From Streptomyces sp. NBC_01233 (GTDB lineage Bacteria > Actinomycetota > Actinomycetes > Streptomycetales > Streptomycetaceae): a stretch of 64,000 nucleotides of DNA. Positions 10,439 to 25,371 of this stretch are shown piece by piece. Below the pieces are notes generated by a model. That model had not been told where the DNA came from. It was given only the letters and a program-made list of their open reading frames with translations, and did not search any database. The stretch spans positions 6,800,501 to 6,864,500 of the forward strand of contig NZ_CP108514.1 in NCBI RefSeq assembly GCF_035989305.1, written 5' to 3'. The position numbers were made by a program, and so were the translations under genes. Position 1 is the first letter of the stretch. Every line of letters begins with the position of its first letter.

Positions 10439-11164
10439 ATGAGACTGCTGCTCGTCGAGGACGACGATCACGTCGCCGCCGCCCTGTCCGCGATCCTCGC
10501 CCGGCACGGCTTCCAGGTCACCCACGCCCGCAGCGGCGAGGAAGCCCTGCAGGCGCTGCTGCCCGCCGGGGCCCTGCCCGGCGCGTCTCCCTACGGGGTG
10601 ATCCTGCTCGACCTCGGCCTGCCCGACCAGGACGGCTACGAGGTGTGCGGCAAGATCCGCAAGCGCACCGCCACCCCCGTCATCATGGTGACCGCGCGGG
10701 CCGACGTACGCTCCCGCATCCACGGGCTGAACATGGGCGCCGACGACTACGTCACCAAGCCCTACGACACCGGCGAGCTCCTCGCCCGCATCCACGCCGT
10801 CGCCCGGCGCACGGGTGCCTCCGAGGAGGCCGCGGCCACCGGGACCGGTACGCCCGCGACGGTCCGGCTCGGCCCCGTCAGCATCGAGCTGCCCAACCGC
10901 CGGGTCAGCGTGGACGGCGCCGACGTGCCGCTCACCCGCAAGGAGTTCGACCTGCTGGCCCTGCTCGCGCAGCGGCCCGGCGTCGTCTTCCGCCGCGAGC
11001 AGATCATCAGCGAGGTGTGGCGCACCAGCTGGGAGGGGACCGGGCGCACCCTGGAGGTCCACGTCGCCTCGCTGCGCTCCAAGCTGCGCATGCCCGCCCT
11101 GATCGAAACCGTCCGCGGGGTGGGCTACCGGCTCGTCACTCCGACCGCCCCGACCGCCCCCTAG
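10439..11164 (+). CDS. OmpR/PhoB-family response regulator
   Basis: Two-component transcription regulator, 241 residues. The receiver domain has the acidic pocket VEDDD (residues 6-10), phosphoacceptor Asp58 in ILLDLGLPD, Thr in VIMVTAR, and Lys in DYVTKPYD. The C-terminal winged helix is recognised by VPLTRKEFDLLALLAQRPG and the ending TLEVHVASLRSKL...IETVRGVGYRL. The sensor kinase gene starts 13 bases downstream, so both are cotranscribed. The signal and targets are unknown; a location next to gluABCD is not proof of a link. Confidence 0.93.
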   Translation: MRLLLVEDDDHVAAALSAILARHGFQVTHARSGEEALQALLPAGALPGASPYGVILLDLGLPDQDGYEVCGKIRKRTATPVIMVTARADVRSRIHGLNMGADDYVTKPYDTGELLARIHAVARRTGASEEAAATGTGTPATVRLGPVSIELPNRRVSVDGADVPLTRKEFDLLALLAQRPGVVFRREQIISEVWRTSWEGTGRTLEVHVASLRSKLRMPALIETVRGVGYRLVTPTAPTAP

Positions 11165-11176
11165 GGGTCCTCTGCC

Positions 11177-12589
11177 GTGCGCGCCCGATTGCTCCCGCTG
11201 CTCGTCATCCTGATGGCGGGCACGCTGCTCGCGCTGGGCTTCCCGCTCGCGGTGAGCCTGGCCGCCGGACAGCAGCAGCGGGTGGTGGTCGACCGCATCG
11301 ACGACAGCGCCCGGTTCGCCGCCCTCGCCCAGCTCGTCATCGACGCCCAGGGCTCCGGATCCACCGGCGCCGACGCCCGCCGCGAGACCCTCCAGCTCGA
11401 ACTCGGCCGCTACCAGGAGCTGTACGGCATCCGCGTCGGCATCTTCTACCGCGACGACAACGACATGGCCCGCTCGCCCAGCTGGTGGCAGCTCCCGGAG
11501 TCGGGCGAGGGCCGCCGGGCCTTCGAGGAGGCCCTCGCAGGCCGGCGCAGCCACGATCCGCCGCAGGTGTGGCCCTGGCAGACCCACGGCCGACTGCTCG
11601 TCGTCTCCCCGGTCGTCCTCGACGGCGACGTGGTCGCGGTCGTCGCCACCGACTCGCCGACCGACCTGATGCGCGGCCGGATCCTGCAGGGCTGGCTGCT
11701 CATCGCGGGCGGCCTCGCCGCCGCCATGCTGGTCGCCTTCGGCGCCGCCCTGAGGCTCACCAGCTGGGTGCTCAAGCCCGTGCAGACCCTGGACGCGGCC
11801 GCCCACGGCATCGCCACCGGACGGATGAACTCGCGCGTCGCGGCCGCCGGCGGACCTCCGGAACTCCAACGCCTGGCCCGTTCGTTCAACGAGATGGCCG
11901 ACAACGTCGAAGAGGTACTGGAGCAGCAGCGGGCGTTCGTCGCCGACGCCTCCCACCAGCTGCGCAACCCGCTCGCGGCGCTGCTCCTGCGGATCGAGCT
12001 GCTCGCCCTCGAACTGCCCGAGGGGAACGAGGAGATCGCCTCCGTACGCACCGAGGGCAAACGCCTGACCCAGGTGCTGGACGACCTCCTGGACCTGGCG
12101 CTGGCCGAGCACGCCTCCGCCGAGATCAGCCTCACCGACATCGGGGCGCTGACCGCCGAGCGGGTCGCCGCGTGGCGCCCGTACGCGGAGGAGAAGGGCG
12201 TACGGCTCACCGAGACGGGCCGCACCGCCGTCACCGGCTGGGCCGACCCCATCGCCCTGTCCAGCGCGCTCGACGCCGTCATCGACAACGCCCTCAAGTT
12301 CACCCCTGAAGGTGAGGAGGTCGAGGTGTCGGTCGCCGCCGAGGGGCGCGTCGCCCGCGTGGTCGTCGCCGACCGCGGACCCGGCCTCACCGAGGAGGAG
12401 CTGCTCCGCGTCGGCGACCGCTTCTGGCGCAGTGGCCGCCACCAGAACATCAAGGGCTCCGGGCTCGGCCTGTCGATCTCCCGCGCGCTGCTCGCCGCGG
12501 GCGGCGGATCCCTCTCGTACGAGACGAACCCGCCGCACGGGCTGCGGGTGACCGTGTCCGTGCCGCGCACCGGCCCCCACGGCGCCTGA
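11177..12589 (+). CDS. Two-component sensor histidine kinase
   Basis: Membrane sensor kinase of 470 residues. Membrane segments at about 4-29 and 174-195 flank an extracytoplasmic domain of some 145 residues. A HAMP linker (LKPVQTLDAAAHGIATGRM) is followed by the HisKA dimerisation box with the phosphorylated His in FVADASHQLRNPLAALLL, then an ATPase domain with the N box DNALKF, G1 DRGPGL and G2 GSGLGLSIS. GTG at 11177 is the start. Its last 140 bases overlap, on the other strand, the 3' end of the GH85 gene. Confidence 0.92.
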   Translation: MRARLLPLLVILMAGTLLALGFPLAVSLAAGQQQRVVVDRIDDSARFAALAQLVIDAQGSGSTGADARRETLQLELGRYQELYGIRVGIFYRDDNDMARSPSWWQLPESGEGRRAFEEALAGRRSHDPPQVWPWQTHGRLLVVSPVVLDGDVVAVVATDSPTDLMRGRILQGWLLIAGGLAAAMLVAFGAALRLTSWVLKPVQTLDAAAHGIATGRMNSRVAAAGGPPELQRLARSFNEMADNVEEVLEQQRAFVADASHQLRNPLAALLLRIELLALELPEGNEEIASVRTEGKRLTQVLDDLLDLALAEHASAEISLTDIGALTAERVAAWRPYAEEKGVRLTETGRTAVTGWADPIALSSALDAVIDNALKFTPEGEEVEVSVAAEGRVARVVVADRGPGLTEEELLRVGDRFWRSGRHQNIKGSGLGLSISRALLAAGGGSLSYETNPPHGLRVTVSVPRTGPHGA

Positions 12590-14828
12590 GCCGCTGCCAG
12601 ACGAGGGTGGCGCGGGCCGGGGCCGAGGCCGCGTACAGCTCGTCCACGGCCCGCACCTCGAAGGCGGCCGCCCGCTCCCGCCCGGCCCGCGGGACGGCCG
12701 GGAGGTAGAAGGCGGTACCGCACGTGCCACCGAGGAAACGGCGGGTGCCGTCGGGCAGGACGCGCGACACCTCGTAGTGGCGCGGCTGCCGGTGCGGGCC
12801 GGCCGCGCCGCGCCAGGACAGGCGCAGCCAGGCCCTTCCGTCCCGCCGGGCCGAGGCGGCGACGGCCGGCGCGGTGGGCGGGGCCGGGCGCCCGGGGCGA
12901 GGGGTGTCGTGTACCGACAGGGCGCCGAGCCGCCACACCGCCGGCTCCTTCCCCCGTGCGGTGATCCGTACGGCCAGGGCGTACGCGGTCCTCCCCGCCA
13001 GCGCCCCGAGCCCGGCCCGCGCCGTGCGCCAGCCCTGCCCGCGGTCCGTGCTTCCGGCGGGCAGCCACGTGTACGGGACCGGCTCGCCGGGGGCGGCGGG
13101 CTCGCGGACGGCCACGCCGACCTCCACCGAGACGGGCCCCGACCCGCTGGCGTGCACCAGCTCCAGGACGCTCCCGCGGGTCAGCGGCAGCCGCGTGGAG
13201 TGCAGCCCGATGACCGCCGGGGCGCTCAGGGCGCCCGCGACCAGCAGGCTGGAGCCGCCGCGCCAGGCGTCCGCGAAGTCCAGGGTGACGGAGGGGCGTT
13301 CGCCGGCCGTGTCCACCACCCAGCGGCGGCCCGGGAGCCGGTCCTGGAGCCCGAGGTGGTTCCAGGGCGTGTCGGAGACGGCCTTGCCGTTCTCGTACCA
13401 GCGCAGCCCGTGCCCGGTGTTGAAGCAACAGGCGAAGGGGAGCCCGGTGACCGTGGACCGGTCGGCGACGGCCGTGGCCGGGGCCCGCCAGCCGGACGCG
13501 GCCCCGGACCCGGAGGCGGATTCGGGGGCGGGTCTCGCGGGGTCCAGGGACTCGCCCGTCCAGAACCGGTCGTCGGCGCGGTGGAACGCGCCGGGCGAGC
13601 GGTCGGTGAGGTGGTTGCGGGTCCACTCGGGCCGGTAGAAGCCGTAGCTGACGACGTGCTCGCGGTCGCGCGGGATGATCGCGTCCCAGGGGACGGCGGA
13701 GTCCCAGCCGCGGGATTCCGTGTCCACGGCCGCCCACAGCTCGTGGCGGGAACGCCCCAGCCGGTCGGCGAGCGCTCCCGACGAGGCCAGGGTCTGCGCG
13801 GTCCGGCGGAAGTCCACGAACATCGTGTCCGCGACCTTCCCGCCCCGGTCCTCGAAGAACTCCTGGTTGAGCTGGTTGAGGGCGCCCTGCCAGCCCACCC
13901 GGCCCGTGGTGTTCATGGCGTCGTACCAGGTGATGCGCAACCCGTGCGGCGCGCCCGCGGCCCGCAGGGCGCGCAGGAACTCCCGCATCCGGGCGGCCAG
14001 CTCGCTGTCGCCGCCGTCCGTCTCGGCGTTCACGAACCAGCCGTCGAAGCCGTACGTCCGCGCCACCTGGACGAGCTTGTCCGCGAGCGGGAACCGGCCG
14101 AGGGCGTCCCGCTGCACCAGGTCGCGGGTCCACCGGAGGTCGCCGCCGTAGGCGACGGGCGGCAGGAACACGTTGCCCAGCACCCGGACCCCGTTGCGGT
14201 GGGCGGCGTCGACCACGGGCGCGTTCGGGGCGAGCACGATGCCCTCGCCGGCGGAGCCGCCCCAGAAGACCAGCTCGTCGATGTACGCCCAGTGCGTGAG
14301 CGCGTAGTAGTCGGCGGTCGGGGAGCCCTGGGAGGGGTTCCCGGCGGTGGGCCCGAAGGACACGAGGGAGGCGATCCGGGCCTGGCCGGCCCGGGCGCCC
14401 CGGTGCGCCGGGACCGGGGTGAACCGCTGCGCCAGGGGCACGGTCGCGGTGTTGTGGGCCAGGTCGGGGTCCCCCTCCGGGCTCCACTGGAGGAGCGAGC
14501 GCCACACGATCCCCGGGCCGGGGCTCCCCGCCGGGAGGGAGTCCGGGAACCAGTACGAGGCGTACGGGGCCAGGTCGGCCGGGGCCGGCGGGGCGGGCGG
14601 GGCGGGCGTGATCGGGGCGTCGGGGGCGGCGGGCGCCGGCGCGGCGTAGGCGTACGGGGCCTGGCCCGCCGCGCCCAGCAGTGCGGCGGCCCCGGCTCCG
14701 GCGGCCAGCACCGCGCGCCGGGACGGTCGTACGGGCGCGGCGGGCGGCGTATGAGGGTAGACGCCGTTGCGCGTCCCGCTGATCTTGCCGGTCTCGCTGG
14801 TCTCGTCGGTCTCGCTGGTCTCGGCCAT
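12450..14828 (-). CDS. Secreted GH85 endo-beta-N-acetylglucosaminidase
   Basis: Endoglycosidase that cuts between the two GlcNAc residues of the N-glycan core. The first 60 residues carry a twin-arginine-type signal (PSRRAVLAAGAGAAALLGAAG), so export by Tat is likely. The GH85 catalytic pair is visible as Asn267-Ala-Glu269 in GFDGWFVNAETDGG, followed by the conserved RITWYDAMNTTGRVGWQ; the catalytic domain spans roughly 80-440, then beta-sandwich domains. The ATG at 14828 has GAGGAG upstream. The last 46 residues are Arg-rich, low in complexity and run antisense through the end of the kinase gene, so the original stop was probably lost and the tail is an extension. It lies 25 bases downstream of the GH5-type gene in the same operon. 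Confidence 0.85.
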   Translation of the reverse strand: MAETSETDETSETGKISGTRNGVYPHTPPAAPVRPSRRAVLAAGAGAAALLGAAGQAPYAYAAPAPAAPDAPITPAPPAPPAPADLAPYASYWFPDSLPAGSPGPGIVWRSLLQWSPEGDPDLAHNTATVPLAQRFTPVPAHRGARAGQARIASLVSFGPTAGNPSQGSPTADYYALTHWAYIDELVFWGGSAGEGIVLAPNAPVVDAAHRNGVRVLGNVFLPPVAYGGDLRWTRDLVQRDALGRFPLADKLVQVARTYGFDGWFVNAETDGGDSELAARMREFLRALRAAGAPHGLRITWYDAMNTTGRVGWQGALNQLNQEFFEDRGGKVADTMFVDFRRTAQTLASSGALADRLGRSRHELWAAVDTESRGWDSAVPWDAIIPRDREHVVSYGFYRPEWTRNHLTDRSPGAFHRADDRFWTGESLDPARPAPESASGSGAASGWRAPATAVADRSTVTGLPFACCFNTGHGLRWYENGKAVSDTPWNHLGLQDRLPGRRWVVDTAGERPSVTLDFADAWRGGSSLLVAGALSAPAVIGLHSTRLPLTRGSVLELVHASGSGPVSVEVGVAVREPAAPGEPVPYTWLPAGSTDRGQGWRTARAGLGALAGRTAYALAVRITARGKEPAVWRLGALSVHDTPRPGRPAPPTAPAVAASARRDGRAWLRLSWRGAAGPHRQPRHYEVSRVLPDGTRRFLGGTCGTAFYLPAVPRAGRERAAAFEVRAVDELYAASAPARATLVWQRLRRRGGRCAARTRSPAARAAGSSRTRGIRRPRRAARGRSTGRARSP

Positions 14829-14853
14829 GCGGGGCTCCTCGCGAGGGGATCGG

Positions 14854-16107
14854 TCAGGTCACGTCGTGCACGCGCAGCACCTCGGTGATGCCGCGCGCCG
14901 ACAGGTGGGCCGGGTCCTCGGCCTGCTCCGCCAGGACCACCGAGGGGCGCACCCCCTGGGCCGTCAGCGCGGCCCACGCTTCGAAGAACGTGCCGCCCGG
15001 GGCGCACACCGACCGGCCCGGCGCCTCCTGCGCCCCGCCGACGTCCACGGCGAGCGCGGTGGAGCGCACGGCCGGGCGGTGCGCACGGCCCCGCCACTCC
15101 TCGGCGATCCGGGCCACGACGGCGCCGGCCGGTTTGGTCCGGCGGTCGTTGGTGAGCAGGCCGAGGCCGTACTCCAGCTCCGGGAAGTCCGCGAGCTCCC
15201 GGGACACGTCGTGCGAGCACCACCAGGTCACGCCCCACAGGTCCGGGCAGTCCAGCGCGTTCGTGACGGTGGCCTCGGTGAACCGCGCCGCGTGCTCCGG
15301 CCGGATCAGCGGCGCCGGGGTGCCGACCTCCTGGAGCCACACGGGACGGTGCGGGTCGAGGGCCCAGGCCTTGGAGAGCTCGATGAGGTACGCGGCATGG
15401 TGCTCGGTCGCGGTCCCGCGCCCGCCGTGGCGCTGCGCGGTGCCGTTGAAGACCCAGGAGTGCACGGCGGTGGCCGCGCCCAGCCGGGCCGCCTGGGCCG
15501 GCGTGAAGGGGTGCCCGTCCTGGTACCAGGCGGCGTCGTACTCGGCGTGCAGGTGCAGCCGCCCCGGTGCGCCCTGCTCGCAGGCGGCGAGCATCCGCTC
15601 CAGCCAGCGGCAGGCCTGGTCCCGGGTGATCCGGTCGGGGTCGGGGTGCGGGGCGTCGGAGAACTGGTTGATCTCGTTGCCCACGGTCATGCCCAGGAAG
15701 TTCGGCCGGTCGGCGAGCGCGGCGGCCAGCGTGCGCAGGTACTCCTGCTGCCCGTTGACCGCATCCGGGTCGGTGAAGAGGTTGCGCCGGTGCCAGGTCC
15801 GGGTCCAGGCCGGCAGGAAGTCGAAGCTCGACAAGTGGCCCTGCAGCCCGTCCACGTTGACGTCGAGCCCGCGTTCGGCGGCCGCGTCCGCGAGCGCGAC
15901 GAGCTGTTCCACAGCGCGCGGGCGGATCAGCGTCCGGTTCGGCTGGAAGACCGGCCACAGCGGGAACACGCGGACGTGGTCCAGCCCGAGCGCGGCGATC
16001 GAGTCGAGGTCGGCCCTGACCTCGTCGAGGTCGAAGTCCAGCCAGTGGTGGAACCATCCGCGGGCCGGCGTGTAGTTGGCGCCGAAGCGGAGCGCGTCAT
16101 CGTGCAC
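14854..16107 (-). CDS. GH5-type beta-mannosidase-like glycosidase
   Basis: A TIM-barrel glycosidase of clan GH-A, 417 residues, no signal peptide, so cytoplasmic. Acid/base Glu145 lies in GMTVGNEINQF and the nucleophile Glu260 in VWLQEVGTPAP, the NE...E pair of GH5. The N-terminal LRFGANYTPARGWFHHWLDFD and the genomic company of GH85 and GH38 resemble GH5_18 enzymes that split Man-beta-1,4-GlcNAc; subfamily assignment is inference. GTG at 16107 was chosen because AGGACG lies just upstream; the frame is open to another GTG at 16149. It is the first gene of the leftward operon, divergent from GH38, with the LacI operator 145 bases upstream. Confidence 0.75.
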   Translation of the reverse strand: MHDDALRFGANYTPARGWFHHWLDFDLDEVRADLDSIAALGLDHVRVFPLWPVFQPNRTLIRPRAVEQLVALADAAAERGLDVNVDGLQGHLSSFDFLPAWTRTWHRRNLFTDPDAVNGQQEYLRTLAAALADRPNFLGMTVGNEINQFSDAPHPDPDRITRDQACRWLERMLAACEQGAPGRLHLHAEYDAAWYQDGHPFTPAQAARLGAATAVHSWVFNGTAQRHGGRGTATEHHAAYLIELSKAWALDPHRPVWLQEVGTPAPLIRPEHAARFTEATVTNALDCPDLWGVTWWCSHDVSRELADFPELEYGLGLLTNDRRTKPAGAVVARIAEEWRGRAHRPAVRSTALAVDVGGAQEAPGRSVCAPGGTFFEAWAALTAQGVRPSVVLAEQAEDPAHLSARGITEVLRVHDVT

Positions 16108-16251
16108 AGGGCGTCCTGGAGTTCTGGGGGAATTCACCGGATGGGCCACAACCTGCCGGTGTGGATGAGGAAAGTCAACAGGGCCTCAGGCTTGGCTACT
16201 TATGCGCTTCAGTCCAGTTGACACAAGGGTTCTGTTGGCTGGAACCTGAGG

Positions 16252-16271
16252 GAACTAATGCGGTTTAGTTC
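16252..16271. promoter_or_regulatory. LacI-family operator between the GH5 and GH38 genes
   Basis: GAACTAATGCGGTTTAGTTC is a 20-bp palindrome with a central CG; the two half-sites match at 8 of 10 positions (GAACTAA and TTAGTTC arms are exact). This size and central CG are the standard form for LacI/GalR regulators. It sits 27 bases upstream of the GH38 start. A TTGACA lies at 16218-16223. The likely repressor is the LacI protein encoded at 20537. Confidence 0.7.
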
Positions 16272-16298
16272 TGGCTGGCCACAGGGAAGCATGTGGAA

Positions 16299-19200
16299 AT
16301 GGACAGCGGAATTTCGGTCACGGCGGTCACCACTCCGGCCCTCTTCACCGGGCCGCCGGAAACGCCCGCGCAGGTGGTCCGCGTGCGCATCCGCAGGGAG
16401 CGTCCGGCCGGTCCGCTGTACGTCACCGTGCGCGGCGACGGCCTCACCACGCCGCACCCGCGCATCCTGCGCGCGGACACGGACGCGGACGCGGACGCGG
16501 ACACGGATCCGGCCGCGAAGGACGCGGCCGCGGACGGGACGGAGCGCGAAGCCACCGTCGAGGTCGCCGTCCGTACCGGGGCCGCCGCCCCCGGGGAGCT
16601 GCTGGCCGCCACCGCCCGTGTCACCACCCCCGACGGGCGCCCCCTCGCCGAGCTGCCGTTCGGGCTGACCGTCGCCGAGCCCGGCTGGACCGTCCGGCTC
16701 GTCCCGCACTTCCACTACAACCCGATGTGGTGGAACACCCAGGCCGCCTACACCGCCCTGTGGGACGCCCCGCCACGGCCCGGCGAGGCGGAGCGGGGAT
16801 GGGAGTACGCGGGCGTGCCCGCCTTCACCCTGGTCCCGCTCCACCTCCAACAGGCCCGCGAGGAACCGGCGTACCGCTTCGTGCTCTCCGAGGTCGACTA
16901 CCTCAAGCCCTACTGGGACACCCGTCCCGCCGGCCGCGCCGAGCTGCGCGCGCTGATCGCCGAGGGGCGCGTCGAGATCGTCGGCGGCACCTACAACGAA
17001 CCGTCCACCACGCTCACTTGCGCCGAGACCACCGTCCGCAGCGCCCTCCACGGCCTCGCCCTGCACCGCGGCACCCTCGACGCCGACCCCCGCACCGCCT
17101 GGCAGCTCGACGTCTTCGGCCACGACCCGTCCTTCCCCGCCCTGATGTCCGGCTGCGGACTCGACTCCGCCGTCCTCGCCCGCGGCCCGCACCACCAGTG
17201 GGGCCCGATGACGGACCGGTGGGGCGACCCGCTGCGGGCGCCCACGGCCATGCAGCTGCCCGCCGAGTTCGAGTGGATCGCGCCCGGCGACGACGGCGGG
17301 CAGGGTCTGCTGCTCCACTACCTGCCCGCGCACTACTCGGCCGGCTGGCCCTCCCACCGCGCACCCGACGCCGAGAGCGCCGCCGAGCAGCTGCTGGACC
17401 TGTACGAACTGCTGCGCATCCGCGCCGCCACCCGCAACGTCCTGATCCCCATGGGCACGGACTTCTCCTGGCCCCACCGCTGGGGCCTGGACGTGCAGCA
17501 CGCCTGGAAACGCCGTTACTGCTGGCCGCGCATGGAGCACTCCGGCCCGCGCGCCCACTTCGACGCCGTCCGGGCCGAGTTCGCCGCGCGCGGGGAGCGG
17601 CCGCTGCCGGTGACCCGGGAGATGGGGCCGGTCTACACCGGCAAGGACGTCACCTACATCGACGTGAAGCAGGCCCACCGGGCCGCCGAGAACCTCCTCG
17701 AACAGGCCGAGGCGTTCGCCGCACTGGCCTGCGCCGAGGGACTGCTCGACTATCCGGCGCAGACACTGGCCAAGGCCTGGCGGCACCTGCTCCACGACGC
17801 GGTGACCGGGACCTTCTCCGACCAGGTGTACCTGGACCTGCTCCCGACCTGGCGGGAGGCGCACGAACTGGCCGCCGCCGTACGGGAGGAGGCGCTCGCC
17901 GCGCTCACCGGCGCGGCCGACACCCGCGGGCCGTCGCCGCTCGCGGTGACCGTGCACAACCCGGTGTCCTGGACGCGGACCGACCTGGTCCGGACGTCCG
18001 TCGACCTGGCCGCGCTGGGGCTGACGGCCGCGGAGGCGCACCGGATCACCGTCCGTGACGCCGAGGGCCGGTACGCGCCCGTCCACATCGAGGCGGCGGC
18101 CGAAGCCGTGGCCGAGGTGGTGTTCCTCGCCGTGGCGGTTCCCTCGCTCGGGCACCGGACCTGGTGGCTGGAGGCAGCACGGCCGCCGCTCCCGCGGCCC
18201 GCCGCCTCGGGCGGCTGGGAGCCGGCGGACGGCCTCACCGTGCAGAACGAGTTCTTCCGCGCCGAGGCCGATCCGGCGCGAGGCGGCGGCCTCGCCCGGC
18301 TGCAGGACCGGCGCACCGGGCGGGAACTCCTGCGCGCCGGGGAAGTGGACGAACTGGTCGTGCAGGACGAGTACCCCCAACACCCCTACTTCGAGGAGGG
18401 CCCCTGGCACCTGCTGCCGAAGGGGCCGGGCACCGGTTCGGGTTCTGCGCCCGCCGCGTCCTGCCGGGTCGAGCGGGGGCCGCTCGGGGCGCGGATCGTC
18501 GCGACCGGGCGCACCGGGCCGGTCCGCTGGACCCGCACCACCACCCTGTGGGAGGGCCTCGACCGGGTGGAACTGACCACGCGGATCGACGAGTTCGACG
18601 GCTCCGACCAGCTGGTGCGGCTGCGGATCCCGGCGGACGTGCCAGGGGCGGTCCCGGTCGCGGAGACGGCTGCCGCCACCGTGGGACGCGGCTTCGCCTT
18701 CCCGGAGGCGGATGCGGGGGCCGACCACGTCCGGGCTCCGTGGACCCTGGACAGTCCGTGCCTCAATTGGTTCGCGCTCTCGGCGCCGCTGGCCGGGCCG
18801 GACCGGGCGCTGGGCGCGGCGGAGATCGTGCTGCCGGACGCCGGAACTCCAGACGGGCTGCGGGAGTTGGTCACCGCGCTCGGCCGGTACGGGGTCACCG
18901 CCACCCCGACCCGGCCCGCCGGTCCGCGCTGGGGCGACCTGGCGGTGGACAGCAGCCTCCCGGACTTCCGGATCGCCCTCGGCGGCCCCGGGGCCAATAC
19001 CTTCACGGCGGCGGTTCTGGAGGGGGCCGATCCCGCCTACGCACAGGAGGTACGAGAACACGCGCGGACGTGGATCCCGGCCCGGGCCCGGCTCCGCGCA
19101 CTGTGGAGCCCCGGCTGCGACCTGACCGGCATCCGGGACCTGCCGGTCCTGGTGCACACCGGCTCACCGGCGGAACTCGCCCGGACCGTCGCCGCCTCGG

Positions 19201-20540
19201 GCCGCCTGCCGGGCGCCGGGCAGCCGGCCGAGGAGGCCGCGCACGAAGTCCCGTACGCGAACCGGACCGTCGGGATCCTGGTCCGGGGCACGCCCGGCTT
19301 CGCCGTGGACACGGCGGGCCGGCTGCACAGCAGCCTCATGCGCTCGTGCACCGGCCGCCCCGGCGGCGCCTGGATGGACCCTCCCCGGCGCACCGCCCCG
19401 GACGGCAGCTCCTTCCAGCTCCAGCACTGGACGCACGTCTTCGAGCACGCGCTGGTGGCGGGCGAGGGGGACCGGCGGGAAGTGGACCTGGCGTGCCGGG
19501 GGCGGGAGTTCAACAAGCCCCTCACCGCGGTGACGGGAGTGCCGGCGGGCGGACCGCGCCCGCCGTCCCGTTCCCTCCTCGGCGTGGAACCGGCCGGCCG
19601 GGTGCTGGTCGAGGCCGTGAAACGCGGCGAGGAGGGCGGACTGGCCGTCCGGCTCCGCGAAACGCACGGCAGCCCGGCGGCGCCCGAGGTGCTCTGGCCC
19701 ACCGGGGCGAGCGCCGAAGCGGACCTGCTGGACCGCCCGCTGGGCCCCTTCGGGGCGGGCATCGGCGGTGCGGCCACCACCACTGTGCTGCTGCGCACAT
19801 CCTCCGGCATGCCGCTGCGGGAGGGCGGACGAGAGCTCCACCAGCCGGTGTTCAGCCGGTACTGGCTGCACAACACGGGGACGGCTCCGCTGGGGGACGC
19901 GCCGTACACGGTGACGTGTGACGGCCCGGCGTCCGCCGCGACGGTGACCCTCGCCTCCCACGCCGGTGCGGGCGGCCCGGTCGCACTGGAGGTCCGCGCC
20001 CCCGACGGCTGGCACACCTCCTGGACCCGGCGGACCACGGAGCCGGCGCCCGGCGGGTACGAGCGCATCCCGCTGGGCGTGACGCCCACTGCCGCGGCCG
20101 AACCCGGCGAACACTTGGTCCGGATCCTCGCCGCCACCCCCGCGGGGGAGTTCGAGGACGTGCTGACCGTGACCGTCCCCGGCGGCCCCGTCCCCGCGGG
20201 GCTGTGGGTCGAGGCGCCCGACCGGCAGGTCGTCGTCGCCCCCGGCGCGCGCGGCCTCGTACGGGCCCGGATCGGCAGCACCGGCGTCCGCAGCGCGCTG
20301 ACGGGCCGCGCCTACGCCGTCTCCCCTTACGGAACCTGGCAGTTGACGGCACCCGCCGCCCTGCCCCTGCACGTACCGGCGGACGAGCCGGCCGAGGTGG
20401 AGTTCGAGGTGCGGCCGCCGCTCGACACCCCTCCCGGGGAGTACTGGATCGCGGTCAAGGCCACCTGCCAGGGCAGGATCGCGTACGGTCCGGCCATTGC
20501 CCTCCGTATTCCGCCGCTGACGCACCCGAAGGACGAATGA
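16299..20540 (+). CDS. GH38 alpha-mannosidase, very large, with C-terminal NEW3-like domain
   Basis: Retaining alpha-mannosidase, 1413 residues against about 850-1050 for usual bacterial GH38. Residues 1-125 form an extra beta-rich domain. The GH38 catalytic domain begins with VPHFHYNPMWW (137-144); the nucleophile is Asp271 in AWQLDVFGHDPSFPALM, and VEIVGGTYNEPSTT precedes it. In most GH38 enzymes the first motif reads H-x-D and supplies two zinc ligands; here it reads H139-Y-N141. Middle beta domains include TVQNEFFRAE (typical GH38 C-terminal region), and the last 150 residues resemble an NPCBM-associated NEW3 domain. No signal peptide. ATG 16299 has GGGAAG upstream; a GTG at 16293 is too close to it. 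A Ala/Asp repeat (DADADADTD) lies near residue 65. Stop overlaps the lacI-type start (ATGA). Confidence 0.85.
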   Translation: MDSGISVTAVTTPALFTGPPETPAQVVRVRIRRERPAGPLYVTVRGDGLTTPHPRILRADTDADADADTDPAAKDAAADGTEREATVEVAVRTGAAAPGELLAATARVTTPDGRPLAELPFGLTVAEPGWTVRLVPHFHYNPMWWNTQAAYTALWDAPPRPGEAERGWEYAGVPAFTLVPLHLQQAREEPAYRFVLSEVDYLKPYWDTRPAGRAELRALIAEGRVEIVGGTYNEPSTTLTCAETTVRSALHGLALHRGTLDADPRTAWQLDVFGHDPSFPALMSGCGLDSAVLARGPHHQWGPMTDRWGDPLRAPTAMQLPAEFEWIAPGDDGGQGLLLHYLPAHYSAGWPSHRAPDAESAAEQLLDLYELLRIRAATRNVLIPMGTDFSWPHRWGLDVQHAWKRRYCWPRMEHSGPRAHFDAVRAEFAARGERPLPVTREMGPVYTGKDVTYIDVKQAHRAAENLLEQAEAFAALACAEGLLDYPAQTLAKAWRHLLHDAVTGTFSDQVYLDLLPTWREAHELAAAVREEALAALTGAADTRGPSPLAVTVHNPVSWTRTDLVRTSVDLAALGLTAAEAHRITVRDAEGRYAPVHIEAAAEAVAEVVFLAVAVPSLGHRTWWLEAARPPLPRPAASGGWEPADGLTVQNEFFRAEADPARGGGLARLQDRRTGRELLRAGEVDELVVQDEYPQHPYFEEGPWHLLPKGPGTGSGSAPAASCRVERGPLGARIVATGRTGPVRWTRTTTLWEGLDRVELTTRIDEFDGSDQLVRLRIPADVPGAVPVAETAAATVGRGFAFPEADAGADHVRAPWTLDSPCLNWFALSAPLAGPDRALGAAEIVLPDAGTPDGLRELVTALGRYGVTATPTRPAGPRWGDLAVDSSLPDFRIALGGPGANTFTAAVLEGADPAYAQEVREHARTWIPARARLRALWSPGCDLTGIRDLPVLVHTGSPAELARTVAASGRLPGAGQPAEEAAHEVPYANRTVGILVRGTPGFAVDTAGRLHSSLMRSCTGRPGGAWMDPPRRTAPDGSSFQLQHWTHVFEHALVAGEGDRREVDLACRGREFNKPLTAVTGVPAGGPRPPSRSLLGVEPAGRVLVEAVKRGEEGGLAVRLRETHGSPAAPEVLWPTGASAEADLLDRPLGPFGAGIGGAATTTVLLRTSSGMPLREGGRELHQPVFSRYWLHNTGTAPLGDAPYTVTCDGPASAATVTLASHAGAGGPVALEVRAPDGWHTSWTRRTTEPAPGGYERIPLGVTPTAAAEPGEHLVRILAATPAGEFEDVLTVTVPGGPVPAGLWVEAPDRQVVVAPGARGLVRARIGSTGVRSALTGRAYAVSPYGTWQLTAPAALPLHVPADEPAEVEFEVRPPLDTPPGEYWIAVKATCQGRIAYGPAIALRIPPLTHPKDE

Positions 20541-21622
20541 GACAGGTCATGGCCCGCAGACCCACGATCAAGGACATCGCCCGGCAGGCCGGGGTGTCGG
20601 AGAGCGCCGTCTCGTTCGCGCTCAACGACCGGCCCGGCGTCTCGCAGGACACCCGGGCCCGGATCCGCCGCGTCGCCGAGGAACTCGGCTGGCAGCCCAA
20701 CAGCGCCGCCCGCGCCCTGTCCGGCGAACGGTCCGGAGCCGTCGGGCTGGTCCTCGCCCGGCCCGCGCACACGCTCGGCGTGGAGTCCTTCTTCCTCCAG
20801 CTCGTCTCCGGCATCCAGGAGGTCCTCTCCGCCGCCCGGACCGCGCTGCTGTTCCAGGTCGTCGAGGACATCGACGCCGAATGCGCGGTCTACCGGCGCT
20901 GGTGGGCCGAACGGCGGGTCGACGGGGTCCTCGTCGTCGACCCGCGCATGCGGGACCCGCGCCCGGCCCTCCTCGGGGAGCTGGGCCTGCCCGCGGTCAC
21001 CATCGGCGAGCCCGAGCCCGCCGACGGCTCCTCCCCGGCCCCGGAGGTCCCCGAGGCCGTGGTGGTCTCCTCGGTGCGGGCCGACGACGCCGGGGCCATG
21101 GCCCAGGTCCTGGACCACCTGCACGGGCTGGGCCACCGCCGGATCGTCCACATCGCCGGGCTCCCCGGCCTGGCCCACACCGTCCGCCGGATGGACTCCC
21201 TGCGGACCGAGGCCGCGCGGCGCGGACTCGGCCCGGACCAGGTGCGCTCGGTGGTCACCGACTACTCCGACGCCGAGGGCGCGGCGGCCACCCGCCGGGT
21301 GCTCGCCGAGCCGCAGCCGCCGACCGCACTCGTCTACGACAACGACGTGATGGCCGTCGCCGGGAGCGCGGTCGCCGCCGAGCTGGGCATCCCCGTACCG
21401 GGCCGGCTCTCGGTCGTGGCCTGGGACGACTCCGCGCTCTGCCGGGTCACCCACCCCCGGCTCACCGCCCTCGTGCGCGACACCGCCGGCTTCGGCCGGC
21501 TCGCCGCCGAGGAGCTCCTCGCCGTCCTCGCGGGCGGGCCGCCCGGGGTCCGGATCAGCGAGCAGCCGCGACTGGAGCCTCGCGAGAGCACGGCGCCGCC
21601 CCCGGCGCATACTGAATCCTGA
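20537..21622 (+). CDS. LacI-family transcriptional regulator of the glycan cluster
   Basis: DNA-binding regulator of 361 residues. The N-terminal helix-turn-helix reads TIKDIARQAGVSESAVSFALN with the hinge helix PNSAARALSGERSG; the rest is the periplasmic-binding-like sensor domain (VGLVLARP..., VVAWDDSALC). The ATG at 20537 overlaps the GH38 stop, and GAAGGAC is placed correctly for it, so it is translationally coupled to its target gene. It very probably binds the palindrome at 16252-16271 and responds to mannose- or GlcNAc-containing fragments, which is inference from gene order. Confidence 0.9.
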   Translation: MRQVMARRPTIKDIARQAGVSESAVSFALNDRPGVSQDTRARIRRVAEELGWQPNSAARALSGERSGAVGLVLARPAHTLGVESFFLQLVSGIQEVLSAARTALLFQVVEDIDAECAVYRRWWAERRVDGVLVVDPRMRDPRPALLGELGLPAVTIGEPEPADGSSPAPEVPEAVVVSSVRADDAGAMAQVLDHLHGLGHRRIVHIAGLPGLAHTVRRMDSLRTEAARRGLGPDQVRSVVTDYSDAEGAAATRRVLAEPQPPTALVYDNDVMAVAGSAVAAELGIPVPGRLSVVAWDDSALCRVTHPRLTALVRDTAGFGRLAAEELLAVLAGGPPGVRISEQPRLEPRESTAPPPAHTES

Positions 21623-21642
21623 ACCCTTCCTGGAGCCGCCCC

Positions 21643-22674
21643 GTGATCACCCCCGCCGCCCCCTTCCCCGCACCGCGCGCCGGCGCGGCCGCCGGCCCGA
21701 CGGTGGCGATCGACATCGGCGGTACGAAGATCGCCGGTGCGCTGGTGCACCCCGACGGCACGATGACCGCCACCACCCGCCGGGCGACCCCGCGCGGAGT
21801 GGACGCGGAGGGTGTCATGGCGGCGGTGAGCGAGGTCGTGGCCGACCTGTCCGGCTCCCCGCTGTGGGCCTCGGCGGTCCGCTGCGGGATCGGCAGTGCC
21901 GGCCCGGTGGACACTTCCCGGGGCACGGTCAGCCCGGTGAACATCGGGGCGTGGCGGGAGTTCCCGGTCCAGGCCCGGGTGGCGGCGGAACTGGCGGCGC
22001 GCGGGGCCGAGCTGCCGACCGTACTGGCCGGGGACGGCGTGGCGATGACCGCCGCCGAGCACTGGCTGGGCGCGGCGCGGGGGCACGCGAACGCGCTCTG
22101 CATGGTCGTCTCCACGGGCGTGGGCGGCGGCCTCATCCTGAACAACCAGCTACACCCCGGCCCCACGGGCAACGCGGGCCACATCGGCCACATCAGCGTG
22201 GCCTTCGACGGCGAACCGTGCGTCTGCGGCAGCCGCGGCTGCGTCGAGTCGGTCGCCTCCGGCACGGCGATCGCCCGCTGGGCCCGGGACCAGGGCTGGA
22301 CCCCGGCGGCCGGCGCGAGCAGCGGGAACGGCACGGGGAGCACGCGGGACGCCTCGGCCGCCGGCGTGGCCGCGGCCGCCGCCGCGGGCGACCCGATCGC
22401 CCTGGCCGCCTTCGACCGCGCGGGCCGTGCGCTCGCCGCCGCCATCGCCGCCACCGCGACCCTCGTCGAAACGGACATCGCCGTCATCGGCGGCGGGGTC
22501 GCCGCCTCCGGCGACATCCTCTTCGCCCCGATCCGCACCCACCTCGAGGCCTACGCCACGCTCTCCTTCGTCAAGGAGCTCCGGGTGGTCCCGGCGACCC
22601 TGGGCACCCACGCGGGCCTGATCGGCGCGGCCGCCGCGGCGATGATGCTGCTGCCGTCGCCTCCGCCCCCATAG
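21643..22674 (+). CDS. ROK-family sugar kinase
   Basis: Cytoplasmic sugar kinase of 343 residues. The phosphate-binding motif is IDIGGTKIAGALV near residue 23; the ROK signature with zinc-binding cysteines is GNAGHIGHISV...CVCGSRGCVESVASG near 180-210; a catalytic Asp is in LAGDGVAMTAAEHW. An Ala/Gly/Ser-rich insert near 220-240 is unusual but in frame. It follows the regulator after 20 bases and starts with GTG. In N-glycan catabolic loci such kinases phosphorylate mannose, GlcNAc or ManNAc; which one applies here cannot be read from the sequence. Confidence 0.9.
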   Translation: MITPAAPFPAPRAGAAAGPTVAIDIGGTKIAGALVHPDGTMTATTRRATPRGVDAEGVMAAVSEVVADLSGSPLWASAVRCGIGSAGPVDTSRGTVSPVNIGAWREFPVQARVAAELAARGAELPTVLAGDGVAMTAAEHWLGAARGHANALCMVVSTGVGGGLILNNQLHPGPTGNAGHIGHISVAFDGEPCVCGSRGCVESVASGTAIARWARDQGWTPAAGASSGNGTGSTRDASAAGVAAAAAAGDPIALAAFDRAGRALAAAIAATATLVETDIAVIGGGVAASGDILFAPIRTHLEAYATLSFVKELRVVPATLGTHAGLIGAAAAAMMLLPSPPPP

Positions 22675-22716: not shown

Positions 22717-23712
22717 TCAGGACTTGACCGACCGGTAGTACCGGCCCGCGCCCTCGTGCAGCTTCAGGGGATCGGTGTAGATCGCCGTCCGCAGGTCCAC
22801 CAGCTGCGCCGCGTGGACCTCGCGCCCGACCAGGTCGCGGCTGAGGATCACCGTCCGCGTCAGCTGCTCCGTCAGGGCGGGGTCCGTCTCCGCCGTGGTC
22901 ACCAGCAGGTTCGGCACGGCCAGGGTCGTCACCGCACTGGTGTTGCGCGCCCGCGCGTACGCGTCCTGCGGCATGACCGCCGTCCGGTAGTAGCGCGCCG
23001 GGCTGCCGCTCCCCTGCAACTGCTCCACCAGGTCGCCGAGCTGCACGAGCCGGATCTGGAACCGCTCGGACAGCTCGCGCACCGCGTTCGTCGGCAGGCC
23101 GCCGGACCAGAAGAAGGCGTCGATCCGGCCGGCCTCCAGCTCGCCCGGCATCGTGTCGATGCCGATGGACACCGGCGTGACGTCCAGCACCGGGTCCAGC
23201 TCCGCCGCCGTGAGCAGCCGCTCCGAGACGAGCCGCACCCCGGACCCCGGCTGGCCGATCGCGACCCGCTTGCCCCGCAGGTCCCGGGCCGACTGCACCG
23301 GGGAGTCGGCCGGCACCACCAGCTGCACGTAGTCGTCGTAGAGCCGGGCGACCCCGCGCAGCAGGTCCGCGCGCGGCTTCCCGTCGAGCCGGTACTTGGC
23401 GACCGCGTCCGCCGTCGCCACCGTGAAGTCCGCCTCACCGGAGGCCACCCGCTTCAGGTTCTCCTGCGAGCCCTCGCTGGTCTCCAGCCGCACGTCCACC
23501 CCGGGCACGTCCCGCCCGAGCGCCTGCTGCAGCAGCTGCCCGTACCGGTGGTAGACCCCGGTCCGCGCGCCCGTGCTGATGGTCAGTTCGCCCTGCAGTT
23601 CCGGCTCCCCGAAGGGCTTGAGCCACCAGGTCAGGACGCCGAGCACGGCCAGTACGGCCACCAGGACCCGCAGGGCGTGGCGCCTGCTGATCCGGGGCGG
23701 TACGAGAGGCAT
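22717..23712 (-). CDS. TAXI-family TRAP transporter solute-binding protein, membrane-anchored
   Basis: Extracytoplasmic binding protein of the TAXI group, 331 residues. A cytoplasmic start ([12 protein letters not shown]) is followed by one membrane segment ([19 protein letters not shown]), which may be an uncleaved anchor. The domain begins [19 protein letters not shown], the typical TAXI opening, and continues with [20 protein letters not shown] and [16 protein letters not shown]. The TRAP permease genes that normally accompany such proteins (fused 4TM/12TM) are not present nearby, so it is an orphan here. ATG at 23712 faces away from miaB, with which it shares a 138-bp divergent gap. Confidence 0.88.
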
Positions 23713-23850: not shown

Positions 23851-25371
23851 ATGACCAGCAGCGACCGGAGCCAGGCAGTGGACGAGAAGCGAAGCTACGA
23901 GGTGCGCACCTACGGGTGCCAGATGAACGTGCACGACTCCGAGCGACTTTCCGGTCTGCTGGAGGACGCCGGTTACGTCCGGGCACCCGAGGGCTCCGAC
24001 GGCGACGCCGACGTCGTGGTCTTCAACACCTGCGCGGTCCGCGAGAACGCCGACAACAAGCTGTACGGCAACCTGGGCCGGCTGGCCCCGATGAAGACGA
24101 AGCGCCCCGGCATGCAGATCGCCGTCGGCGGCTGCCTCGCCCAGAAGGACCGCGACACGATCGTCAAGAAGGCCCCCTGGGTCGACGTCGTCTTCGGTAC
24201 GCACAACATCGGCAAGCTCCCCGTGCTGCTGGAGCGCGCCCGCATCCAGGAAGAGGCGCAGGTCGAGATCGCCGAGTCGCTGGAGGCGTTCCCCTCCACG
24301 CTCCCGACCCGCCGCGAGTCCGCGTACGCCGCCTGGGTCTCGATCTCCGTCGGCTGCAACAACACCTGCACCTTCTGCATCGTTCCGGCGCTGCGCGGCA
24401 AGGAGGAGGACCGCCGGCCCGGTGACATCCTCGCCGAGGTGGAGGCCCTGGTCGCCGAGGGCGTCTCGGAGATCACCCTGCTCGGCCAGAACGTGAACGC
24501 GTACGGCTCCGACCTGGGCGACCGCGAGGCCTTCAGCAAGCTGCTGCGCGCCTGCGGCCAGATCGAGGGCCTGGAGCGGGTCCGTTTCACCTCCCCGCAC
24601 CCGCGCGACTTCACGGACGACGTGATCGCCGCGATGGCCGAGACCCCGAACGTGATGCCGCAGTTGCACATGCCGCTGCAGTCCGGCTCGGACCCGATCC
24701 TCAAGGCGATGCGCCGCTCGTACCGGCAGGAGCGGTTCCTCGGCATCATCGAGAAGGTCCGCGCCGCGATCCCGCACGCCGCGATCTCCACCGACATCAT
24801 CGTGGGCTTCCCCGGTGAGACGGAGGAGGACTTCCAGCAGACGATGCACGCGGTGCGCGAGGCCCGCTTCGCGAACGCCTTCACCTTCCAGTACTCCAAG
24901 CGGCCCGGCACCCCCGCCGCCGACATGGACGGGCAGATCCCCAAGGAGGTCGTGCAGGACCGCTACATGCGCCTGGTCGCCCTCCAGGAGGAGATCTCCT
25001 GGGAGGAGAACAAGAAGCAGGTCGGCCGCACCCTGGAGGTCATGGTTGCGGAGGGCGAGGGCCGCAAGGACGGCGCCACGCACCGGCTGTCGGGCCGCGC
25101 CCCCGACAACCGCCTGGTCCACTTCACGAAGCCGGAGCAGGAGGTACGCCCCGGCGACGTGGTCACCGTGGACATCACCTACGCCGCCCCGCACCACCTC
25201 CTGGCCGAGGGCCCGACGCTGACCGTGCGCCGCACCCGCGCCGGCGACGCCTGGGAGAAGCGCAACGCCGCCCCGGCCCAGCCCGCGGGCGTCATGCTCG
25301 GCATCCCGACCCTCGGGGTCCCGGCCCCCCTCCCGGCCACCACGTCGGGCTGCGCGGTGCCGCAGGGCTGA
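23851..25371 (+). CDS. miaB: tRNA methylthiotransferase MiaB
   Basis: Radical-SAM enzyme that adds a methylthio group to i6A37 of tRNAs, the step after MiaA (encoded at 26966). Residues 1-140 form the UPF0004 domain with three Fe-S cysteines in YGCQMN, NTCAVRE and GGCLAQ. The radical-SAM cluster motif is CNNTCTFC near 170. A C-terminal TRAM domain ([11 protein letters not shown]...[18 protein letters not shown]) follows, then a 50-residue Pro/Ala-rich tail common in Streptomyces. The 506-residue length is normal. The ATG at 23851 gives the known N-terminus [11 protein letters not shown]. Confidence 0.96.

Follow-up and report, generated by a model that had tools for sequence, protein, structure and literature searches.

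Loci for N-glycan use that hold a GH5_18 gene together with a regulator, an importer and other glycosidases were reportedly described from gut and soil actinobacteria by Higgins et al. 2021 (ACS Chem Biol 16:701-711), and among solved structures ScGH5_18 of Streptomyces cattleya comes closest to the GH5_18 enzyme treated here. The system that we describe differs from those loci in that its candidate importer and its Ams1-type GH38 are encoded by a separate, unlinked operon that belongs to another lineage.

According to PMC6160142 and PMC10154615, GH85 enzymes cut the chitobiose core, GH38 enzymes trim alpha-mannose and GH5_18 enzymes cut Man-beta-1,4-GlcNAc. The Cutibacterium acnes GH38/GH5_18 locus, as presented in PMC6160142, resembles ours in its GH38, for which Ams1 is the representative structure, in a GH5_18 acting on Man-GlcNAc, in cytoplasmic trimming of the core and in having sugar ABC-transporter genes and a regulator nearby; unlike in our window, the transporter genes are inside the locus, and GH20 and GH18 are present where the window has GH85. 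In the high-mannose pathway of Bifidobacterium longum (PMC10154615), GH38 enzymes likewise remove alpha-mannose down to the core and a GH5_18-type enzyme takes the final step. There three GH38 genes and a GH125 gene share one operon, whereas here one Ams1-type GH38 is found in a remote operon and a different GH38 in the cluster.

The stretch of DNA analysed, termed the window, is 64,000 nucleotides of Streptomyces sp. NBC_01233 (C1:6800501-6864500 of a 10.3 Mb genome in four contigs, called G000 below). Between a histidine kinase gene and miaB it carries a block with GH85 and GH5_18 genes on the minus strand and, divergently on the plus strand, GH38, LacI and ROK genes (Table 1). A preliminary description had placed these five genes around one divergent promoter, and all five are there. 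The cluster type is already known, and the window GH5_18 is, judged by sequence, orthologous to the crystallised S. cattleya enzyme. Scans of the window for tRNAs and Rfam families, and for sigma-70-type promoters between the divergent genes, were empty.

Table 1. Features of the window cluster, its flanks and the remote operon (window positions unless a contig or locus is named).
Feature	Position	Strand	Remarks
Response regulator/histidine kinase pair	10439-12589		one flank of the cluster
GH85 endo-beta-N-acetylglucosaminidase	12450-14828	minus	PF03644 (E 3.3e-74) and GH85_C
GH5_18 beta-mannosidase	14854-16107	minus	GTG start; phmmer match to 7lr7; no signal peptide seen
Weaker second operator-like palindrome	16196-16215	.	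core 16199-16212, 2 mismatches
Putative LacI-type operator GAACTAATGCGGTTTAGTTC	16252-16271	.	27 bp before GH38 start
GH38 (not Ams1 type)	about 16299-20540	plus	Glyco_hydro_38N, middle, 38C and NEW3 domains
LacI-family regulator	20549-21622	plus	alternative start: ATG at 20537, overlapping GH38 stop
ROK-family sugar kinase	21643-22674	plus	E 1e-60; AGHIGH motif
TAXI/NMT1-type substrate-binding protein gene	about 22717-23577	minus	between ROK and miaB
miaB	about 23896-25371		other flank of the cluster
Remote SBP-permease-permease-Ams1-type GH38 operon	G000:C1:8719502-8725928 = L126:9502-15928		1.9 Mb from window

The block had also been proposed to be an accessory insertion in a core region. 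We inspected 19 genomes that lack the cluster at this position: 12 genus genomes without GH5_18 at E <= 1e-60 and seven with an importer-bearing cluster elsewhere. The kinase was present in all 19; miaB lay inside the fetched 14 kb in 15, at 1.2-7.4 kb from the kinase, and was absent from that stretch in four. No cluster genes were found between kinase and miaB in the 15, which bears out the proposal. Several cluster-free genomes have a kinase-miaB gap of about 1.2 kb, with room for the TAXI/NMT1-type gene alone. GH5_18 itself occurs in 136 of 246 genus genomes (E <= 1e-60); a plasmid search gave four records, two from the same S. cattleyicolor strain, and the best 80 named relatives all come from Streptomyces and two close genera.

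The GH85 protein was expected to be secreted by a Tat-type route, and in addition to its domain match it has a twin-arginine-like N-terminus (SRRAVLAAGAG; signal judged by eye). Its catalytic Asn-x-Glu pair is intact (DGWFVNAETDG), and its closest PDB entries are 2vtf, 3fha and 3fhq. The usual stop is lost, leaving a C-terminal extension of about 48 residues (window 12450-12590), and because of this loss GH85 overlaps the 3′ end of the kinase gene antiparallel by 140 bp; in 11 of 11 relatives inspected the protein ends within 0-6 residues of the usual stop point. The GH5_18 protein, for which a Pfam search gave no match, matches ScGH5_18 (7lr7) over its full length with phmmer, at E 6.6e-218 across residues 6-416, and the S. 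cattleya record at 76.6%, with BlGH5_18, BlMan5B and 6gvb as further characterised matches. The stretches VGNEINQF and WLQEVG, whose Glu residues we take to be catalytic, are both conserved (7lr8 has Ala in the first). With ScGH5_18 as its nearest solved structure, the presumed cytoplasmic GH-A enzyme with its NE/E pair is placed in GH5_18 rather than in another GH5 subfamily. Kinship with GH5_18 alone does not fix a role, since in Actinoplanes two family-5 enzymes placed near GH5_18 act in the opening of sporangia, one of them yielding no product on seven polysaccharides (PMC12691653).

The window GH38 has the N-terminal, middle and C-terminal domains of the family and its nucleophile, which we take to be the Asp in AWQLDVFGHDPS. 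In the metal site HFHYN replaces HFHYD (codon 16719-16721); the substituted Asp is presumably a metal ligand, by eukaryotic GH38 structures. HxHYD is kept in 118 of 118 readable homologs among the best 120 of 2153 with E <= 0.001 (P0037 and P0056 lack coverage of the motif; P0067 was read by eye). P0005, from Streptomyces sp. 147326 and the closest among the homologs listed, keeps the metal Asp and has FSH in place of FGH after the nucleophile. Matches of the window enzyme to 7ufr-7ufu and Ams1 are weak (E about 1e-5), and against the Ams1-type relatives of GH5_18 loci it shows 23-29% identity over stretches of 103-363 residues. By these comparisons it belongs to a GH38 subgroup other than the Ams1-type enzymes of GH5_18 loci, and the presumed metal ligand is substituted as well; the earlier assignment to GH38 stands with these two corrections. 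Of the named loci (classes defined below; some contigs end early), four of the 29 importer-less ones and five of the 49 importer-bearing ones were seen to have a window-type GH38, and none was found in the 21 kb of L002, the nearest named relative. The gene is otherwise constrained, with dN/dS of 0.20-0.26 against four relatives, and its product is probably both dispensable and impaired in this strain.

The Asp to Asn change and the GH85 stop loss might together suggest a cluster in decay that has ceased to support the use of N-glycans by this strain. We hold this to be the least probable of the explanations considered: all five cluster genes are open, with dN/dS of 0.17-0.40 against four relatives, GH85, GH5_18 and the remote GH38 keep their active-site motifs, and the window GH38 is absent from most related loci anyway.

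No ABC importer of the kind that a Gram-positive glycan utilisation locus would include was found within the cluster block, an absence pointed out in the preliminary description, which expected a transporter elsewhere. The substrate-binding protein (SBP) of an importer that lies inside its GH5_18 cluster (locus L036) was used as a query against G000. The best of nine matches, at 37% identity, opens the remote operon of Table 1, which is now a candidate for that transporter. Its GH38 is of the Ams1 type (E 2.4e-255) with the HAHID motif intact, its SBP has a lipobox-like LSTAAC (by eye), and no LacI gene was found in 20 kb of L126 around it. The best reading is that this operon encodes the importer for the window pathway, with the SBP specificity suggested by the neighbouring genes. 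The Bifidobacterium gene set, with which the window had been equated, is matched by window and remote locus together and not by the window alone. Near the remote operon lie a gene with an eCIS core domain (L126:1944-3632) and a trypsin/STAND NTPase/TPR gene (L126:4213-8643).

The 80 named GH5_18 loci were sorted by script, those with importer genes at most 4.5 kb upstream of GH5_18 being termed importer-bearing. There are 49 of these, mostly with the full SBP-permease-permease set and a few cut or partial, and 46 have an Ams1-type GH38 downstream. In 29 the importer is absent between LacI or ROK and GH5_18; two fell in neither class. One of the 29, L079 (Streptomyces sp. CB01635), is a second GH5_18 locus beside the importer-bearing L069, with LacI present, the importer absent and only a 29% GH85-like neighbour. 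The remote SBP was sought in 49 genomes; 25 of them represent importer-bearing loci (25 of the 49), and the other 24 represent all the importer-less loci except L014, L017, L019, L021 and L079 (24 of the 29). An ortholog was found in 24/24 importer-less genomes (76-95%) and in 0/25 importer-bearing genomes, where matches were at most 40% over most of the length, apart from one 45% fragment. An even sample of 246 genus genomes, with the six best candidates scored per genome and 71% or more counted as an ortholog, gave 20 with the remote SBP, all 20 having GH5_18. It was present in each of the 17 genomes with a GH5_18 of at least 85% (the window's included), on the same contig in nine, 0.8-3.4 Mb apart, and on another contig in eight. 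The other three (G036, G162 and G121) carry genes of a second cluster lineage, termed lineage C below: G036 and G162 have GH5_18 and an Ams1-type GH38 next to an importer of this type, together with LacI-like sequence and the operator, and in G121 lineage-C pieces lie at contig ends. The two samples overlap in part and clade members share ancestry; the 24/24 co-occurrence may go back to a single event retained by all descendants seen.

The operator core CTAAANCGCATTAG has four sites with at most one mismatch in G000, compared with none for the reversed control: the remote SBP is preceded by two, and the window and a tRNA-Ser hold one each. The same operator is thus at both loci and rare elsewhere in the genome. 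With up to two mismatches the window holds two matches, compared with 0.01 expected, and both are in the divergent promoter. Before the remote SBP, a two-mismatch match to GAACTAATGCGGTTTAGTTC lies 175 bases from the ATG, and a second copy 107 bases further out. Within 500 bases ahead of the remote SBP, 22 of 24 clade genomes have a best site with at most two mismatches, against 3-6 mismatches for the reversed control. A scan of 25 genomes gave 1-5 core sites each, the reversed control giving none in 20 and at most two in any. The tRNA-Ser site (G000:C1:4468448, CCAAACCGCATTAG), conserved and operator-like, was rejected as it sits in sequence read by eye as a tRNA-Ser gene; its 14 bases recur in at least 24 of the 25 genomes scanned, G067 included, and were counted as a tRNA match. 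Other weak matches of the 20-base pattern, one two-mismatch site among them, were rejected because the conserved core is absent. Clade genomes with two remote sites have them mostly 105-107 bases apart (116 in L147, 156 in L151); the 105-107 base spacing (L126:9203-9323 and clade relatives) is about ten helical turns, as might suit a DNA loop.

LacI is missing between ROK and GH5_18 in two of the 24 clade genomes, L032 (S. toxytricini) and L077, and elsewhere in these genomes nothing closer than a 35% relative was found. These same two are the ones without a recognisable remote operator (3 and 6 mismatches), and neither retains the cluster operator (5 and 6 mismatches). The 22 genomes with LacI all keep a remote operator with at most two mismatches, and 21 of them a cluster operator with at most one; the exception, L020, has LacI and remote operators with an unrecognisable cluster operator. 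By the permease tree (89/96), L032 and L077 may share one LacI loss.

Taking these observations together, we think it likely that the window cluster and the remote operon form a hybrid, two-piece N-glycan regulon, controlled in trans by one LacI. They might instead be separate, with a general oligosaccharide importer serving the window pathway and the remote operon, under another regulator, handling some other alpha-mannoside such as fungal mannan fragments. The distance of 1.9 Mb and the low identity of the remote SBP to the in-cluster one would fit such a separation, as would the eight further G000 SBPs that weakly match the in-cluster SBP and the fact that Ams1-type GH38 enzymes are not necessarily restricted to N-glycans. 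It is nevertheless unlikely, given the near absence of the shared operator from the rest of the genome, the joint presence and absence of remote SBP and importer-less cluster (24/24 and 25/25), the loss of operators jointly with LacI, and the occurrence of the same importer and GH38 types inside GH5_18/GH85 clusters. One such lineage-C cluster, L192, is complete, with LacI, operator, same-type importer, GH5_18, GH85 and GH38; L191 has the arrangement in part.

The ancestry of the two pieces was examined in trees. For GH5_18 (36 rows) the clade joins the importer-bearing lineage A, and support for the split from lineage C is 100/100. For the Ams1-type GH38 (27 rows; L193 was left out, its match being in two pieces) the clade's remote gene falls with lineage C, with the split from A supported at 100/100, and in the first-permease tree (31 rows) the remote gene is again with lineage C, at 100/100. 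For LacI (32 rows, L191 at half length) the clade is nested among lineage-A rows, the two C rows do not fall together, and A and C are unseparated. In gene order the remote operon agrees with importer-bearing clusters, GH5_18 and GH85 aside, as it would if it were the clade's own ancestral importer and GH38, relocated and diverged. Such a relocation is very improbable, however, and was rejected on the trees, which place the remote GH38 and permease with C against A; moreover L016, an intermediate that has lost the cluster importer, has the remote importer with a lineage-A GH38 still beside GH85.

It seems reasonably probable, if less so than the regulon itself, that in the clade of S. lavendulae, S. 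virginiae, S. avidinii and their kin the regulator and core enzymes came from one cluster and the importer and alpha-mannosidase from another, the two having an operator code in common. In L033, L034 and L037 the same kinase and miaB flank an importer-bearing cluster; most simply, then, the window cluster is such a cluster without its importer and GH38. An ancestral single cluster would have lost its own importer and Ams1-type GH38, and a second cluster lineage with the same operator would have supplied the replacements, in whichever order. Lineage-C clusters and the remote operon have no flanks in common, and at the remote site a loss in place would therefore look like a partial acquisition.

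Gene content, shared operator, distribution, conflict between trees and joint absence of LacI and operators are read directly from the genomes; the pathway that they suggest would run as follows. Extracellular GH85 would free N-glycans by a cut between the two core GlcNAc residues, and the resulting Man(n)GlcNAc, the presumed substrate of the ABC importer of the remote operon, would be taken up. The cytoplasmic Ams1-type GH38 would remove alpha-mannose, GH5_18 would cleave the leftover Man-beta-1,4-GlcNAc and the ROK kinase would phosphorylate a product sugar. The ROK motif AGHIGH matches the ManNAc kinase 6jdc, the two glucokinases compared having Glu there (ExGH), and mannose and ManNAc have an axial C2 group in common; mannose or ManNAc as the substrate is a guess, offered as a lead. 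The window LacI is predicted to bind and repress both loci through the CTAAANCGCATTAG core and to be released by a sugar derived from N-glycans.

Among the literature matches listed there is no published account of this regulon or its LacI in Streptomyces, and as far as our searches show the division of the cluster is new, the importer and the main alpha-mannosidase being encoded by a separate operon that has another ancestry and carries the same operator. The working of an importer-less glycan cluster would be explained in this way, with a candidate importer, operator and regulator named, and uptake judged from a single locus is seen to be potentially misleading. The genome set, which spans in-cluster and distant importers, an intermediate and two LacI-less members, offers a clean case of catabolic clusters dissolving and re-forming via a shared operator. 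If the proposal is true, an uptake module would be exchangeable without rewiring, by way of an operator code common to both lineages.
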